The notes under the pieces: model-generated
What the model was told of the DNA's origin: nothing
Seen by the model: the letters and a program-made list of their open reading frames with translations, nothing else
The model's database searches: none
NCBI GenBank assembly: GCA_026122225.1
Contig: JANEZZ010003061.1
Location: forward strand, 6,627,501-6,691,500
DNA: 64,000 nucleotides
Direction: 5' to 3'
Origin: Heloderma charlesbogerti
Lineage: Eukaryota; Chordata; Lepidosauria; Squamata; Helodermatidae
Position numbers and translations under genes: made by a program
Part shown: piece after piece, positions 1 to 52,850 of the stretch
Position numbering within the stretch: position 1 is the stretch's first letter
Layout of the letters: each line of letters starts with the position of its first letter

Positions 1-333
1 GTTGTTTTTTTAACCGGGATGTGATAGGCTACGTAAGTCTTTACGTAGCCTATCATGTCTCTGTAAAAAAACAAAAAAAACACAAAATGACAAGACTGCA
101 AATGGCAGCGGCAGCAGCCAGTTGGAAGACCAGCCACTGCAGCCGCCGAAGCCGCCACTGCTGCCACCGGAGCCGCCGCTGCCCGGAACATCCGCCCCAG
201 GTAAGTCTCACCCCAGGGGGGATCTGCGGGGTGGCGGGGGGGTGGCAGGCCGTTCCACCACATATTTTGGGGGGCTGAATGCACTGGCATTCGGCCTCAC
301 CGAGATCCGTGGCGGAATTCTCTGACATCCCTA
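1..333 (+). mobile_element. Nested-palindrome hAT-like element, copy 1 (left side cut by window edge)
   Basis: Right part of the palindromic family found five times here. A hairpin of the GATAGGCTACGTAA type lies at 22-55, then a T/A-rich tract, an ATG followed by GC-rich alanine/proline-type codons (about 96-198), a splice-donor match CAG|GTAAGT with GT at 201, a subterminal hairpin around 276-296 (GAATGCACTGGCATTC), and the terminal CATCCCTA ending at 333. This is the type A arm, also seen at 24598-24870 (reverse) and 38935-39185. The target duplication cannot be tested because the left end is outside the window; the right 8 bp would be CTGCAAAG. hAT assignment rests on the other copies. 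Confidence 0.75.
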
Positions 334-4210: not shown

Positions 4211-4850
4211 TCGCCCTTCCCAGGCCACAAAATAAAAAAAGTAAATTGTAAAAAAAAAAAAACGTGATAGGCTACGTAACGATTTACGTAGCCTATCGCA
4301 GCTAGATTTTCAAAGTCAGCCATGATAGGCTACGTATATCGTTATGTAGCCTATCACGGCTGACTTTGGGGGAAAAAATCGCAAATAGCGTTGCCCTTAT
4401 TTTCGCCATAGTCTACGTAAATCTTTACATAGACTACCCGTGCCCAAATAAGGAACGCAAATGGCGGTGCCCATGGGCGCCGCCATTTGCGTACGCGATT
4501 TTTTTCCCCCAAAGTCAGCCGTGATAGGCTATGTAACGATATACGTAGCCTATCACGGCTGACTTTGAAAATCTAGCCGTGATAGGCTACGTAAATCGTT
4601 ACGTAGCCTATCATGTTTTTTTTTTTTTTACAATTTACTTTTTTTATTTTGTGGCCTGGGAGACGGGGCGCTCCCCCTTGGCCTGAATTTCAGTGGCGAG
4701 GGATGGTGTGCCTCCCCCCCGCCCTGAATTTCGGCTGCAAGGGGCAGGGCGCCTCCCCCCCGCCAAGAATTTCGGGGGGAGAAACGGAGCGCCTCCCCCC
4801 CACCACGAAGCAAGCTGCGGGACCAGGTAAGGGACTTTCGTCCATCCTTA
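4211..4850. mobile_element. Nested-palindrome hAT-like element, copy 2 (left arm lost)
   Basis: GATAGGCTACGTAA-type hairpins lie at about 4263-4298, 4320-4360, 4520-4562 and 4580-4613, with an AGTCTACGTAAA hairpin near 4408-4437. The flanks form one larger inverted repeat: the A-rich left side from 4211 (CCCAGGCCAC) pairs with the T-rich right side to about 4662. The type B arm follows (4640-4830): three imperfect tandem units of about 42 bp containing CCTGAATTTC, then CAG|GTAAGG with GT at 4827, 24 bp from the terminal CATCCTTA at 4850. The normal left arm and its target duplication are absent, so the left border is probably a deletion junction. The right flank, GGATTGAA, lies in an L2 coding region. 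Confidence 0.75.
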
Positions 4851-23756: not shown

Positions 23757-24597
23757 ATGGATCAGTACAACCAGAGATATGTTGGTATACCATCGGAAGA
23801 TGGAACTCCCAGGTCGGAAGATGGTCAAAATGCTACTGGGGAGGAACAGAGGATAAGTTCAACTAGCCCTAGATGTGATGACGCAGCTAGCTCAAAGCCA
23901 AAAGGACGGCTAGCAGCCAATGGTGCTGGTGGTGAACGACGAATCCGATGTTCTAAAGATCAACACACCATAGGAACCTGGAATGTAAGATCTATGAGCC
24001 AGGGCAAATTGAATGTGGTTATTGGGGAGATGTCAAGATTAAATATAGACATTTTGGGTGTCAGTGAACTGAAATGGACTGGAATGGGCCACTTCACATC
24101 AGATGGCCACCAGATCTACTACTGTGGACAAGAGGACCACAGAAGAAATAGAGTAGCCTTCATAATTAATAATCAAGTATCTAAAGCAGTGCTTGGATAC
24201 AATCCAAAAAATGACAGAATGATCTCAATTTGAATTCAGGTAAGCCATTTAACATCACAGTGATCCAAATATACGCCCCAACCACAGATGCTGAAAAGGC
24301 AGAAGTATATCAGTTCTATGAGGATCTGCAGCACCTACTGGATAGTACGCCAAAAAAAGATGTTATTTTCATTATAGGAGACTGGAATGCTAAGGTGGGT
24401 AGTCAAACGACACCTGGAATTACAGGCAAGCATGGTCTGGGAGAACAAAATGAAGCAGGACATAGGCTGATAGAATTTTGCCAAGACAACTCACTGTGCA
24501 TAACAAACACTCTCTTCCAACAACCTAAGAGACGACTTTATACATGGACTTCACCAGACCGTCGACACCGAAATCAGATTGACTACATCCTTTGTAA
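23757..24597 (+). pseudogene. BovB endonuclease domain, broken
   Basis: Apurinic-type endonuclease that nicks target DNA for target-primed reverse transcription. Motifs in order: GTWNVRSMSQGKL, DILGVSELKWTGMG, then, after a CGA-to-TGA type stop and a one-base loss near 24220-24240, FNITVIQIYAPT, FIIGDWNAKVGS and RNQIDYILC. These are the expected metal-binding and catalytic blocks, present but split between two frames. Coding resumes at 25585 on the far side of the nested element, in the same frame, because element plus duplicated target total 987 bases. Confidence 0.9.
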
Positions 24598-25576
24598 TAG
24601 GGTGTCAGAGAATTTCTCCATGAATCTTTGGGAGGCCGAATGCCAACACATTCGGCCCCCCGAAATTGGTGGGGAAATTCTCCTCCGGGCCCCCCCCCCC
24701 AGGATGGGACTTACCGTGGCCGAATGTCCCTCTCGGCGGTGGGTCCTGGCGGCGGTTCGGCGGTGTTTCGTCGGGGGCAGGGGCGGCAGCTGGTCTCCCG
24801 ACCGGCTGCCGCCGCCGCCGCCATTGCAAAAAAAGAAAGTAAAGTAAAGTAAAAAAAACCAAACACACACCTGTGATAGGCTACGTAACGATTTACGTAG
24901 CCTATCACGGCTAGATTTCCAAAGTCAGCCGTGATAGGCTACGTAAATCGTCACGTAGCCTATCGCGGGTGACTTTGAAAAAAAAAAAAGCGCGTATGCA
25001 AATGGCGGCGGCCCATGGGCGCCGCCACTTGCATTCCTTATTTTGGCACGTCTAGTCTACGTAAACATTTACGTAGACTACGGCGAAAATAAGGGAACGC
25101 TATTTGCGTTGCCCTTATTTTCGCTGTAGTCTACGTAAATCTTTACGTAGACTAGATGTGTCAAAATAAGGAACGCAAATGGCGGTCCCCATGGGAGCCG
25201 CCATTTGCGTACGTGCTTTTTTTTTTTTTTTCAAAGTCACCCATGATAGGCTACGTGACGATTTACATAGCCTATCATGGCTGACTTTGGAAATCTAGCC
25301 GAGATAGGCTACGTAAATAGTTATGTAGCCTATCATGGGTGTGTGGGGTTTGTTTTTGTTTTTTACTTTTTTTCGCGGCCGGGTAGACAGGGCGCTTCTA
25401 CCCGGCCTGAATTTCGCTGGCGAGGGATGGGGCGCCTCCCCCCCGGCCTGAATTTCGGCCGGGCGAGGCGGGGCGCCTCCCCCCCCTCGCCTGAACTTCG
25501 GGGGGAGATCCGAAGCACCTCCCCCCCACCGCGAAGCAAGCTTCGAGAACAGGTAAGGGACTTTCGTCCATCCCTA
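24598..25576. mobile_element. Nested-palindrome hAT-like element, copy 3 (most complete)
   Basis: 979 bp inside the BovB. Ends TAGGGTG and CATCCCTA. Flanks CTTTGTAA (24590-24597) and CTTTGTAG (25577-25584) match 7 of 8; related BovB copies support CTTTGTAG as the original, so the left one has mutated. Layout: type A arm in reverse (donor at about 24709-24716, GT on the minus strand at 24714-24713), T-rich tract, hairpins at about 24871-24908 and 24929-24966, a palindrome around GGCCCATGGGC (24995-25040), AGTCTACGTAAA hairpins at about 25057-25083 and 25127-25155, the mirror palindrome near 25165-25215, hairpins at about 25241-25280 and 25300-25336, T-rich tract, type B arm with three ~42-bp repeats (about 25395-25520) and CAG|GTAAGG with GT at 25553. 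No transposase, so it is non-autonomous. Confidence 0.9.
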
Positions 25577-27760
25577 CTTTGTAGCCAAAGGTGGCGGACA
25601 TCTATGCAGTTGGTAAAAACAAGACCTGGAGCTGATTGTAGTTCAGATCATGAACTTCTTATTGTACAATTTAGAATCAGACTAAAGAGAATAGGGAAGA
25701 CCCACAGATCAGTTAGATATGAGCTCACTAATATTCCTCATGAATATGCAGTGGAAGTGAAGAATAGATGTAAGGGACTAGATTTAGTAGATAGGGTCCC
25801 GGAAGAACTATGGACAGAAGTTCGCAACATTGTTCAGGAGGCAGCAACAAAAAACGTCCCAAAGAAAAAAACCAAGAAGGCAAGATGGCTGTCTGCTGAG
25901 ACACTGGAAGCAGCCCAAGAAAGAAGGAAAGCAAAAGGCAACCGTGATAGGGGGAGATATGCCCAATTAAATGCAAAATTCCAGAGGTTAGCCAGAAGAG
26001 ATAAGGAATTATTTTTAAACAAGCAATGCACAGAAGTGGAAGAAGATAATAGAATAGGAAGGACAAGAGACCTCTTCCAGAAAATTAGAAACATCGGAGG
26101 TAAATTCCAGGCAAAAATGGGTATGATCAAAAACAAAGATGGCAAGGACCTAACAGAAGCAGAAGAGATCAAGAAAAGGTGGCAAGAATATACGGAAGAT
26201 CTGTATAGGAAGGATAATAATATCGGGGATAGATGTGACCGTGTGGTCAGTGAGCTAGAGCCAGACATCCTGAAGAGTGAGGTGGAATGGGCCTTAAGAA
26301 GCATTGCTAATAACAAGGCAGCAGGAGATGATGGTATCCCAGCTGAACTGTTTAAAATCTTGCAAGATGATGCTGTCAAGGTGATGCATGCCATATGCCA
26401 GCAAATTTGGAAAACACAAGCATGGCCAACAGATTGGAAAAAATCAACTTATATCCCCATACCAAAAAAGGGAAGCACCAAAGAATGTTCAAACTATCCA
26501 ACAGTGGCACTTATTTCACATGCCAGTAAGGTAATGCTCAAGATCTTGCAAGGTAGACTCCAGCAATTCATGGAACGAGAATTGCCAGATGTACAAGCTG
26601 GGTTTAGAAAAGGCAGAGGAACTAGAGAACAAATTGCCAATATCCGCTGGATAATGGAGAAAGCCAGGGAGTTTCAGAAAAACATCTATTTCTGTTTTAT
26701 TGACTATTCTAAAGCCTTTGACTGTGTGGATCATAACAAATTGTGGCAAGTTCTTGGTGGTATGGGGATACCAAGTCATCTTGTATACCTCCTGAGGAAT
26801 CTGTATAACGACCAAGTAGCAACAGTAAGAAAAGACCACGGATCAATGGACTGGTTTAAGATTGGGAAAGGAGTATGGCAGGGTTGTATACTCTCACCCT
26901 ACCTATTCAGCCTGTACGCAGAACACATCATGCGACATGCTGGGCTTGATGAAGCCAAGGCTGGAGTTAAAATCACTGGAAGAAACATTAACAATCTCCG
27001 ATATGCAGATGATACCACTTTGATGGCTGAAAGCGAGGAGGAGTTGAGGAACCTCATGACGAAGGTGAAAGAAGAAAGTGCAAAAGCTGGGTTGCAGTTA
27101 AACCTAAAATAACCCAAGACTTTGGCAACCAGCTTGATTGATAACTGGCAAATAGAGGGAGAAAACATGGAGGCAGTGACAGACTTTGTCTTTCTAGGTG
27201 CAAAGATTACTGCAGCCGCTGACTGCAGCCAGGAAATCAGAAGACGTTTACTTCTTGGGAGGACAGCAATGACAAATCTTGAGAAAATAGTGAAGAGCAG
27301 AGACATCACACTGACAACAAAGGTCTGCATAGTTAAAGCAATGGTATTTCCCATAGTAACCTATGGCTGCGAGAGCTGGACCGTAAGGAAGGCTGAGCGA
27401 AGGAAGACAGATGCTTTTGAACTGCGGTGCTGGAGAGAAATTCTGAGAGTGCCTTGGACTGCAAGAAGATCAAACCAGTCCATACTCCAGGAAATAAAGC
27501 CAGACTGCTCACTTGAGGGAAGGATATTAAAGGCAAAACTGAAGTACTTTGGCCACATAATGAGAAGACAGGATACCCTGGAGAAGATGCTGATGCTAGG
27601 GAAAGTGGAAGGCAAAAGGAAGAGGGGCCGGCCAAGGGCAAGATGGATGGATGATATTCTGGAGGTGACGGACTCGACCTTGGGGGAGCTGGGTGTGGCG
27701 ACGGCTGACAGGAAGCTCTGGTGTGGGCTGGTCCATGAAGTGATGAAGAGTCGGAAGTGA
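25577..27760 (+). pseudogene. BovB reverse transcriptase, one internal stop
   Basis: RT of an RTE-clade LINE. From 25585 the frame carries the linker (RPGADCSSDHELLI, KKTKKARWLS), then RT blocks: NKAAGDDGIPAEL, WKKSTYIPIPKKG, LPDVQAGFRKGRGTREQIANIRW, FIDYSKAFDCVDH, GVWQGCILSPYLFSLYAE and the catalytic YADD at 27002-27013. A stop at 27110-27112 (a lysine codon in relatives) interrupts the C-terminal part, which continues in the same frame to 27760 with YGCESWTVRKAE, RCWREILRVPWTARRSNQSIL and YFGHIMRR. The stretch at 25277-25584 that is open upstream belongs to the nested element and is not BovB. Confidence 0.92.
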
Positions 27761-38394: not shown

Positions 38395-39455
38395 AAACTG
38401 CCAATATCATACTGCCCCTGTACAAATCTATGGTGCGACCACACTTGGAATACTGTGTACAGTTCTGGTCACCACACCTAAAAAAGGATATTGTAGAGCT
38501 GGAAAAAGGGTAGAAAAGGGCAACTGAAATGGTCAAGGGGCTGGAGCATCTCCCCTATGAGTAGGGATGTACGAAAGTCACTTACCTTTTCGCAGCTTGG
38601 CTTCACGGTGGGGGGGAGGCGCTTTGCGTTCCCCCCCGAAGTTCAGGTGAAGGGGGGGAGGCTTCCCGCCTCGCCCGGCCGAAATTCAGGCTGGGGGGAG
38701 GCTTTCCGCCTCGCCCGGCCGAAATACAGGCCCGGGGAGAAGCGCCCCGTCTCCAGGAATTTGTCTAACCCCCTTTTAAAGCCATCCAAATTGGTGGCCA
38801 TAATTTAACTATGTCATAAGAACATAAAAACCCATGGGCCGCCGCCATTTGCGTACACGCTTCCCCCCCCCCAAAGTCACCCGTGATAGGCTACGTGACG
38901 TTACGTAGCCTATCACGGGTGTTTTGTTTTGTTTTTACTTTATTTTTATTTTTTTTTGCAATGGCGGTGGTGGCAGCCGGTCGGGAGACCGGCCGCGGCC
39001 GCCGCCCCCGCTTGCAACGAAACGCCGCTGAACCGCCGCCGGGACCCACCGCCGGGAGGGACATTCGCCAAAGGTAAGGGGGAGGGCGGGGGGGTGGCGG
39101 AGAATTTCACCACCGATTTCAGGGGGCCGAATGCATTGGCACTCAGCCCCCCGAAGATTCGGGGAGAAATTCTCTGCCATCTCTACCTATGAGGGAAGGT
39201 TACAACAGCTGGGATTGTTTAGCTTGGACAAAAGGAGGGTAAGAGGAGACATGATATAGATCTACAAAATTATGGATGGTGTGGGGAATGTGGAGGGGGA
39301 CATGGGTGGGAGGGTGCTGTTGTGCTCATGCCCTGCTTGTGGGTTCCTGGCTGACAGCTGGTTGGCCACTGTGTGGAACAGAATGCTGGACTAGATGGAC
39401 CCTTAGTCTGATCCAGCATGGCTCTTTCTGTGTTCCTATGACTTGTGGAAGACTC
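38395..39455 (+). mobile_element. CR1-like LINE 3' end, split by a palindromic element
   Basis: 38395-38561 and 39186-39455 form one plus-strand LINE: AAGGGCAACTGAAATGGTCA, GGGGCTGGAGCATCTC, then after the insertion GGGAAGGTTACAACAGCTGG, GGTAAGAGGAGACATGAT, a deletion, and the 3' UTR GGTGGGAGGGTGCTGTTGTG...CTGGACTAGATGGACC. The coding part is the RT C-terminus (ATKMIKxLExLPxEER, LGLFSLEKRR in related minus copies). Confidence 0.85.
38562..39185. mobile_element. Nested-palindrome hAT-like element, copy 4, perfect 8-bp TSD
   Basis: Ends TAGGGATG and CATCTCTA, flanked on both sides by CCTATGAG (38554-38561 and 39186-39193), an exact 8-bp duplication in the host LINE. Reverse orientation to copy 3: type B arm first (donor in reverse, AC at 38584-38585, 24 bp from the end; three repeat units), then type A arm with AAG|GTAAGG (GT at 39074). 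Most of the palindromic core is gone: 38755-38830 is a piece of LINE 3' end in reverse, followed by CCCATGGGCCGCCGCCATTTGC and one GATAGGCTACGTGA hairpin at about 38882-38920. Confidence 0.92.
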
Positions 39456-41639: not shown

Positions 41640-41775
41640 AGGCATTGTGGAGCTATTCCATCTTTTCTTTCTTAACAGACTTTCTGTGGTAAGAAAAAAG
41701 ATGGAAGAAATGGTGGGAAAACACAGGAGGGTTATGAGTGGAAGACAATGTCATGTGGAACTAAGGATGTTGGAG
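41640..41775. repeat. Inverted-repeat element shared with 16660
   Basis: CTATTCCATCTTTTCTTTCT faces AGAAAAAAGATGGAAGAA across about 30 bp. A second copy is at 16660-16790. Class unknown. 41776-42174 after it is unassigned. Confidence 0.55.
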
Positions 41776-46345: not shown

Positions 46346-46891
46346 TAGGGATGGTGGAGAATTCCGCCACGGATTTCAGTGAGGCCGAATGCACTGGCAT
46401 TCAGCCCCTCGAAATCCGTGGCGGAACGTAAGAATTTACGTAGCCTATCACGGCTAACCCCCTCCCCCGCCAAAACCCAGCTTACGCAAATGGCGGCGGC
46501 TACGGCGGCCGTCATTTGCGTTCCCTATTTTTCGCCGTTCTAGCCTATGTAAATATTTACATAGGCTAGAATGGTGAAAAATAAAGGAACGCAAATAGTG
46601 CCCACTACTAAATATTTACGTAAGATAAATCGGTGAAAAATAGGGTTTTGGGGGGGGGTTAGCTATGATAGGCTACGTAAATTCTTACATAGCCTATCAC
46701 AGCTGCCTGGTTGGATGCAAATGGCGGCTGGAAATTCGGCTGCGGACGGCCCTGGCCGGCTGCTCTGTGGCCTGGCCACGGAGCGGAGCTGGCCATCAAG
46801 GATTCCGGGGGGGAGGACTGGATTGCCTCCCCCCCATCCCCCCCACCGCAAAAGATTTCACGGAAAGGTAAGTGGGTTTCATACATCCCTT
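46346..46891. mobile_element. Nested-palindrome hAT-like element, copy 5 (divergent subfamily)
   Basis: Left end TAGGGATGGTGG, right end CATCCCTT; flanks CTCCAAGG and TGCCAGGG match only 5 of 8, so the insertion is old. The left arm is a short type A remnant without donor. The core has palindromes around CGGCGGCTACGGCGGCCG, a TAGCCTATGTAAAT hairpin (about 46541-46570) and a GATAGGCTACGTAAA hairpin (about 46666-46702). The right arm is a third type (C): GC-rich with CCTGGCCACGGAGCGG, ending AAG|GTAAGT with GT at 46868, again 24 bp from the end. Confidence 0.8.
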
Positions 46892-46943: not shown

Positions 46944-47590
46944 GAAAAGGGCAACTGAAATGGTCAAGGGGCTGGAGCATCTCCCCTATGAGGGATGGTT
47001 ACAACAGCTGGGATCATTTAGCTTGGGGAATAGGTGAGTAAGGGGAGACATGACAGAGGTGTCTAAATGGTGTGGAGAATGTGGAGAGGGATACATTTTT
47101 CTCCATCCCTCACAATACTAGAACCCGGGGTCATCCCATGAAGTTGATTGGTGGGAGATTCAGGGCAGATAAAAGGAAGGACTTCTTCACACGCGCATAG
47201 TTAAACTGTGGAATTCGCTACCACAGGATGCAGTGATGGCCACCCACTTGGATGGCTTTAAAAGGGGGTTGGAAAATTCCTGGAGGAAAAGGCTATCAAT
47301 GGCTACTAGTCTTGATGGCTATGTGCTACCTCCAGTACCAGAGGCAGTGAGCCTATGTACACCAGTTGCTGAGGAACATGGGTGGGAGGGTGCTGTTGTG
47401 CTCATGCCCTGCTTGTGGGTTCCAACAGAATGCTGGACTAGATGGACCCTTAGTCTGATTCAGCATGGTTCCTCCTGTGTTTTTATGTTCTTATGACATA
47501 GTTAAATTATGGCCACCAATTTGGATGGCTTTAAAAGGGGATTAGACAAATTCCTGGAGGAGAAGGCTATCAATGGCTACTAGTCCTGAA
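46944..47590 (+). mobile_element. CR1-like LINE 3' end plus an attached second fragment
   Basis: Plus-strand copy from AAAAGGGCAACTGAAATGG through RT C-terminus (RFRADKRKDFF-type reading) to the 3' end TTTTTATGTTCTTATGAC at about 47496. A second piece (ATAGTTAAATTATGGCCACC) follows directly to 47590. The same tail-to-body junction occurs in reverse at 38755-38830. Confidence 0.85.
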
Positions 47591-52199: not shown

Positions 52200-52317
52200 T
52201 TAGATAATTGAAAACCATCTGCTACATATATAAATAGCCAGACATAGGGGGCATTCCTTGGAAAATTATGTATTCTTAGAGTAATTTCTAAACAGTGGAA
52301 AAAGTTAAATCGTATCA

Positions 52318-52850
52318 GGGGGGCTGCATTCCAGTGGTGGGAAGGGCCAAAGATAGAAGGGGGAAGGGCCAAAGGTAGAAGGGGGAAGGGCCAAAGGTAG
52401 AAGGGGAAAGGGCCAAAGGTAGAAGGGGGAAGGGCCAAAGGTAGAAAGGGGAAGGGCCAAAGGTAGAAGGGGGAAGGGCCAAAGGTAGAAGGGGGAAGGG
52501 CCAAAGGTAGAAGGGGGAAGGGCCAAAGGTAGAAAGGGGAAGGGCCAAAGGTAGAAAGGGGAAGGGCCAAAGGTAGAAGGGGGAAGGGCCAAAGGTAGAA
52601 AGGGGAAGGGCCAAAGGTAGAAAGGGGAAGGGCCAAAGGTAGAAGGGGGAAGGGCCAAAGGTAGAAGGGGGAAGGGCCAAAGGTAGAAGGGGGAAGGGCC
52701 AAAGGTAGAAGAGGGGGAATACAAAAAAGCACGCCAGCATATTGTAGCTTAAAGCTCTTCCTGCCAGTATCCAGGCCTTAGGAGAGGCATCTCCACCTTT
52801 GAGGGAGGGGGCCATCTGGGGAGCCCTGGGCCTGAGGTTCCCCACCCCTG
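52318..52850 (+). mobile_element. hAT-type element (CAGGGGTGGGGAACC family) expanded by a minisatellite
   Basis: Left part GGGGCTGCATTCCAGTGGTGGG and right part CCAGCATATTGTAGCTTAAAGC, CTGCCAGTATCC, CTTAGGAGAGGCAT and GGGCCTGAGGTTCCCCACCCCTG match 44809-45470. The usual GGCCAAAGGCAAAAGG segment has become a tandem array (next entry). The left end is truncated. Confidence 0.8.
52340..52712. repeat. 22-bp minisatellite, about 17 units
   Basis: Unit GGGCCAAAGGTAGAAGGGG plus 3 bases (22 in all), with single-base variants (AAAGGG versus GGGGGA). Because 22 is not a multiple of 3, every minus frame stays open and reads a rotated LPLALPPSTFGPSPFYLWPF motif; the apparent 139-240 residue proteins are artefacts. 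Confidence 0.95.

Follow-up and report, generated by a model that had tools for sequence, protein, structure and literature searches.

The maize elements Ds and Ds1 of the hAT-type Ac/Ds system carry splice sites at their termini. In the published account (PMC5432752), Ds1 is described as possessing three donors and two acceptors, all located less than 35 bp from the termini, and Ds is said to be biased to giving donors; RT-PCR evidence is cited there. The element family that is the subject of this report, one copy of which lies at the centre of our analysis of a 64-kb stretch of DNA (the 'window'), is similar in that it is likewise a hAT element flanked by an 8-bp duplication and bearing splice donors near its ends; hence, in view of the maize elements, donors at hAT ends are no new idea. 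The family differs from Ds and Ds1 in several respects, however: its host is an animal, its copy number is very high, each arm has a single outward donor, the two lying on opposite strands, the core is palindromic, good acceptors are missing, and in one class of its ends (B/C, see below) the donor is conserved between lineages.

Two further comparisons are instructive. With hAT MITEs in general, for example Mar in Drosophila (PMC3517528), the family shares that it is short, non-autonomous and without coding capacity, whereas its donor-bearing, CpG-rich and asymmetric arms and its 540-bp hairpin set it apart from such elements. The antisense splice sites of mouse L1 (PMC2176070) are likewise conserved splice sites of a transposable element, and those of L1 trigger exonization; L1 is, however, a retrotransposon, and it has such sites on the sense as well as the antisense strand, while we describe a DNA transposon with a single outward donor at each end. 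What is new is the vertebrate-type setting, the scale, the outward pairing on opposite strands and the palindromic core, together with the conservation of the B/C donor between lineages with a degeneracy like that of splice sites. The family is undescribed among the literature matches listed, although it may still be named in repeat libraries; the matches listed for the letters of its terminal inverted repeats (TIRs) and core are unrelated by title, and a search for papers combining every aspect of outward donor splice sites at hAT ends gave none.

A hAT-type element of high copy number

The focal copy (copy 3 in Table 1), with ends TAGGG...CCCTA, is one complete mobile-element copy, and the two sides of its 8-bp target duplication are identical at 7 of 8 positions. 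Among 39 fetched copies, scored with offsets of up to 6 nt permitted, 23 have a perfect 8-bp duplication; the best duplication contains a single mismatch in 9 copies, two mismatches in 5 and three in the remaining 2. Paired ends with 8-bp duplications are also present in the other stretches that were sampled, and locus L071 is occupied by an element flanked on both sides by TACATTAC, with the related locus L072 representing the empty site. The fetched copies and the paired ends possess short TIRs, TAGGGATG, which we take to be of hAT type and to resemble the Ac/Ds TIR TAGGGATGAAA, the superfamily being assigned from the length of the duplication and from the ends. These features indicate that the element is a non-autonomous hAT-type DNA transposon of high copy number; short (at most 979 bp in the window), non-coding and numerous, it has the properties of a MITE. 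The open frame that runs out of the right arm of copy 3 carries a reverse transcriptase domain (RVT_1), and this copy thus appears to have inserted within a retroelement. The element is without a match in Rfam at gathering score, and exact searches of a viral collection with the core motif or the B end, and of a prokaryote collection with the core motif, returned none.

A search of the genome (2.30 Gb, 3,246 contigs) with the element yielded 10,847 first-look candidates, 40 of which were scored, and all of these are long copies with 86-100% identity. Exact matches to the B/C terminus CTTTCGTNCATCCCTA number 50,416 genome-wide, compared with 11 for a reversed-pattern control. Of the window, 4.9% belongs to the family; in 20 other 10-kb stretches, 200 kb in all, its share is 10.5%, a figure that is no estimate for the genome since these stretches were drawn from four contigs already represented among the collected loci. 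Copies are strongly clumped: L065, L066 and L067 (contig C817), L054 and L050 are rich in them, L065 and L067 are more than half covered, with a maximum of 52% of a 10-kb stretch, and 10 of the 20 sampled stretches have zero copies.

Architecture of core and arms

The preliminary description had counted five copies in the window and had placed seven donors in them; the count is borne out, and each of the seven GT coordinates is exact (Table 1). Two kinds of arm flank a core that folds into a single long nested hairpin. In called pairs, type A is found at one end and type B or C at the other, an arrangement that was itself a filter when element pairs were called, and that is also seen in separate maps of copies. 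Reading outward, arm A usually comprises a T-run, AATGGCGGC, a GC-rich block, ACATTCG or a similar motif, the donor, a spacer, a terminal palindrome and the TIR, and we take AATGGCGGC to be a YY1-like motif. The B/C arm, likewise read outward, consists of a GC-rich block with a conserved C-run, CCTCCCCCCCACC, followed by the donor, a short spacer and the TIR. Two finer points made earlier also hold: the repeats of about 42 bp in type B are recovered as self-matches of about 41-42 bp, and the donor lies exactly 24 nt from the terminus in all three B arms and in the one C arm of the window. The corresponding distance from GT to terminus in the three A arms of the window is 114-135 nt.

Table 1. 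Positions of the element copies and their parts within the window (a slash precedes the GT of each donor match; TSD, target-site duplication).
Feature	Position	Strand	Remark
Copy 1	1..333	+	cut by window start; arm A, donor GT at 201
Copy 2	4212..4850	+	truncated on the left; arm B with donor GT at 4827
Copy 3, left TSD	24590..24597	.	CTTTGTAA; pairs with 25577-25584
Copy 3 (focal)	24598..25576	.	hAT-type non-autonomous element, 979 bp
Copy 3, arm A distal part	24598..24713	-	TIR and terminal palindrome, outside donor
Copy 3, arm A splice-donor match	24709..24717	-	ACG/GTAAGT, outward (leftward); reverse GT at 24714
Copy 3, arm A exon-like GC-rich block	24715..24835	-	begins with AATGGCGGC
Copy 3, nested palindromic core	24836..25376	.	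TACGTA hairpins and GCAAATGGCGG motifs; z-score -34.6
Copy 3, arm B exon-like block	25377..25552	+	~42-bp repeats
Copy 3, arm B splice-donor match	25550..25558	+	CAG/GTAAGG, outward (rightward); GT at 25553, 24 nt from terminus
Copy 3, right TSD	25577..25584	.	CTTTGTAG
Copy 4	38562..39185	-	left arm B, right arm A; flanked by 8-bp TSD CCTATGAG
Copy 4, arm B donor	38585	-	reverse GT
Copy 4, arm A donor	39074	+	GT
Copy 5	46346..46891	+	right arm C, donor GT at 46868; arm A is terminal palindrome only

The outer ~80-95 bp of arm A form a palindrome ending in the TIR (24603-24698, 39084-39179 and 46348-46426), as though an older terminus had later gained a small palindromic element on its outer side, and the sequence inside this palindrome, AGGTAAGTCCCATCCC, resembles a B-type end. 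Copy 5 has a reduced arm A without a donor. Copy 4 contains an 84-bp piece (38751-38834) which is 98% complementary to a repeat at 47476-47559, and this foreign repeat replaces or interrupts the T-tract of the left B arm. Elsewhere in the window, a donorless weak relative of the A-type or second-family terminus (see below) begins at 41762, and a tandem array with a 22-bp unit occupies 52251-52803 (18 overlapping copies in the repeat listing). Other repeats of the window have a squamate look.

Strength, orientation and position of the donors

Scored with a position matrix, all seven donors of the window are among the best 0.02-0.30% of the 6,432 GTs that its two strands contain. When arms were collected by nhmmer from the 20 other 10-kb stretches and the window, an outward donor scoring at least 9 was present in 30 of 31 B/C ends and in 23 of 25 A arms, and an inward donor of that score in none of either; shuffled B/C ends reached the donor threshold in 1.1% of cases. 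The arm models were built from donor-bearing arms, and both logo and counts were anchored on the best GT, so that the 30/31 and 23/25 are somewhat biased towards donors. A search with terminus patterns alone, which is free of that bias, yields outward donors in 28 of 32 matches of type B/C and in 26 of 38 of type A, and inward donors in 0 of 32 and 1 of 38, respectively. Some of the 12 donorless A-type matches are chance matches or other elements, yet true A ends devoid of a donor do exist (copy 5 and L058_3349). Elements with TAGGG/CAGGG ends that were called afresh by their duplications (n = 11) carry at least one outward donor in 10 cases and an inward donor in one, the inward site being ATG/GTGAGG within L066:3621-4184. 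In a further set, comprising the flanks of seven earlier loci together with L068-L072, donors are found in 8 of 9 B/C and 7 of 14 A matches, one additional A match scoring 8.6; among the forms encountered there are CAG/GTGAGT, CAG/GTAGGT and GAG/GTAAGT.

The overall logo of the donors, MAG/GTAAGT, is that of a textbook 5' splice site. For the 31 B/C ends, anchored on the best GT, the exon side reads C (18) or A (13) at position -3, A (31) at -2 and G (30) or A (1) at -1, and the intron side GT (31), A (31) at +3, A (29) or G (2) at +4, G (30) or A (1) at +5 and T (21) or G (10) at +6; exon positions -13 to -6 mostly reach about 0.5 bit. Position -4 is also nearly exclusively A or C in these ends, and the restriction of bases at -3 is therefore not unique. 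Genome-wide, exact AGGTAAG is present at the fixed distance in 38,439 of the 50,416 B/C termini (76%), and 37,540 of these 38,439 have C or A at -3. Our own estimate of the fraction expected to be intact is ~78%, for seven bases decaying by ~3.5% each from a uniform starting sequence, where ~3.5% is the mean non-CpG decay measured in a young subfamily of 40 copies.

The distance between donor and terminus is 22-25 nt in B/C ends and 97-152 nt in A arms. Since it is exactly 24 nt in 26 of the 31 B/C ends, some of the conservation might be owed to the transposon end itself, and one may then ask whether AGGTAAG serves the hAT transposase or a DNA-binding protein of the host as a recognition site, its likeness to a donor being incidental. 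The consensus does contain one strong copy per end in matching orientation, the motif in A arms is nearly as conserved (GGTAAG, 0.947) as the terminal blocks (ATTCTC, 0.987; CATCCC, 0.967), and the donor-bearing element of maize belongs to the hAT superfamily too. The position of the motif floats, however, not only within the ranges given above but up to 174 nt in L067_8526, and it lies well inside the end in the second family described below. In very diverged A arms CAG/GTAGGT occurs at 131 and 145 nt and CAA/GTAAGT at 174 nt, in differing sequence context. Moreover, the variants observed (GTAAGT, GTAAGG, GTAAGC, GTAGGT and GTGAGT) fit the degeneracy of 5' splice sites, and both donorless A ends named above lie in elements with imperfect 8-bp duplications. 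On balance, we consider a protein recognition site to be a rather unlikely explanation.

Donor conservation against flanking sequence

The preliminary description had proposed that donors no better conserved than the bases around them would speak against portable exons, and the outcome depends on the level of comparison. Within the young 40-copy subfamily this is indeed what is found, with the two donors at the 33rd and 65th percentile of 393 windows, like other non-CpG sites; this suggests that fixed copies decay freely and that any selection would act on source copies. Between lineages, the B/C ends behave in the opposite manner. When the donor columns are left out of tree building, AGGTAAG requires 0.29 steps per column on the resulting tree of 18 B/C arms, versus 1.83 for all columns and 1.49 for non-CpG columns. 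Values this low are seen in 8 of 122 windows, the donor included, and the remaining seven are all located within one C-run. Six changes at -3 and five at +6 are observed on this tree, and in the set of 31 B/C ends only C/A and T/G occur at these positions. In subfamily variants L032, L034, L037, L040 and L046 the exon side of arm A has changed and GGTAAG is kept, and in L037, L040 and L046 the flanks in arm B have changed too, again with GGTAAG kept. The A arms take a middle position: their donor, with 1.43 steps per column, changes less than the bases next to it and less than the average of all columns (2.43), but lies hardly below the average non-CpG column (1.51), and values as low are reached by 24 of 202 windows.

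The conservation might then reflect shared ancestry only, the source lineages being too few and too young, with no selection involved. Such an account would agree with the neutral donor decay in the young subfamily, with an A-arm donor that is no slower than the average non-CpG column, and with the presence, at 80% identity, of only four exon clusters among the 31 B/C ends and four among the 25 A arms. It is difficult to reconcile with columns -14 to -4 of the B/C ends having undergone about four changes each on the very tree that yields the low donor value, and with a second family that is donor-bearing as well, although built around another core. We regard common descent by itself as improbable.

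A second donor-bearing family and possible autonomous partners

This second family is represented by L066:4581-4891 and by a copy near L067:6018-6314, which have other cores (ATAGACTTATA), a similar layout, an AAATGGC motif and outward donors, one donor of the L067 copy being decayed as judged by eye. A search of the genome gave 2,748 candidates, 40 of which were scored. Four additional copies, chosen from matches spanning the donor region, all have donors, namely CAG/GTAAGC (two copies), CAG/GTAAGT and CAG/GTGAGT. These are located well inside the end, and the two copies that reach the terminus have GTACATCCCTA there again; the donor is thus not tied to a fixed distance from the GTACATCCCTA terminus.

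The genome is rich in matches to hAT transposase domains (871 candidates, of which 150 were scored). The motif CATCCCTA downstream of hAT transposase genes was considered as a matching terminus and was rejected, since homology continues past CATCCCTA, which is hence internal and only end-like. A hAT transposase-like open frame at L072:640-3276 is preceded by an acceptor-like TTTACAG, and seven other loci likewise contain 879-aa hAT transposase-like frames.

Acceptors, coding capacity and promoter features

The preliminary description had further assigned to all seven arms a common order of T-tract, AG, exon-like block and donor. The donors are in place in every one of them, but the order of T-tract and AG does not hold: the A arm of copy 1 is preceded by an A-rich stretch, and the right arm of copy 5 has no T-tract. 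In the wider set, window included, a T-run is missing from 8 of 25 A arms (by eye) and from 11 of 31 B/C ends (by a script calling six or more T within 300 nt), and the best acceptor-like AG of each window arm ranks only in the top 7-43% of all AGs. A full cassette of acceptor, exon and donor, acting as a gene trap in both directions, would draw on the strong donors, which are found in both arm types and are conserved relative to flanks in the B/C ends, and on the T-runs upstream of many arms; with AGs this weak and T-tracts that are not conserved, an upstream functional acceptor is not apparent from the letters, and the cassette that had been envisaged is left without support and appears very improbable.

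Of 21 A arms, 18 keep an ATG frame open, and 15 of the 21 share a common phase. A coding first exon was nevertheless rejected, as the remaining frames, too, are for the most part open and codon periodicity is absent, the variability at the three codon positions of the A exon being about equal (0.238, 0.204 and 0.224; 15 arms). Taken together, the weak acceptors, the T-tracts that are not kept and an ATG frame without codon signal would leave a donor-only reading.

The ratio of observed to expected CpG is 0.71-1.10 in the five copies versus 0.31 for the window, and by script 21 of 25 A arms possess the YY1-like motif, which lies 60-113 nt upstream of their donor; of the three B arms in the window, two lack it within 300 nt of the end. 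The motif in A arms and the CpG richness would favour a promoter, and a bidirectional promoter with two first exons, the second option of the preliminary description, is compatible with these features. Retrocopies joined at the donor were absent from the loci examined, where we read the five listed cases with matches near a junction as alignment artefacts or as a changed donor.

Proposed mechanism and implications

Based on the evidence collected, we suggest that the element is a donor-only hAT-type MITE, rather than an acceptor-exon-donor trap, whose arms may serve as outward non-coding first exons or as U1 landing sites, a reading to which we assign a probability of somewhat less than one half (about 0.47). 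Transcription would start in or beside the CpG-rich arms, in arm A at AATGGCGGC, and would proceed outward on both sides; U1 would recognise a short non-coding exon at MAG/GTAAGT, and this exon would be spliced to acceptors in the flanking host sequence. Alternatively, binding of U1 might boost outward transcription and keep the locus open. In either case, donor-bearing elements would be expected to leave more offspring. It is tempting to go further and to speculate that a 5' splice site has been adopted into the life cycle of a transposon, the element being a portable two-way first-exon module with U1 sites that were selected in source lineages for recruitment of U1, for transcription and openness of the locus in the germline, and for outward splicing. 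This more far-reaching proposal is possible, yet we hold it to be somewhat doubtful.

Should the donors be functional, the family would constitute a very large reservoir of alternative first exons and U1 landing sites, with at least 38,439 exact AGGTAAG sites pointing outward from one end type alone. Because the copies differ in donor, spacing and core, they would also provide a natural test of U1-dependent control of transcription, and it would become testable whether DNA transposons can be selected for splicing signals that are self-serving and not accidental. Finally, if adoption into the life cycle of the element should prove true, the genome would harbour tens of thousands of ready-made outward donors on both strands.
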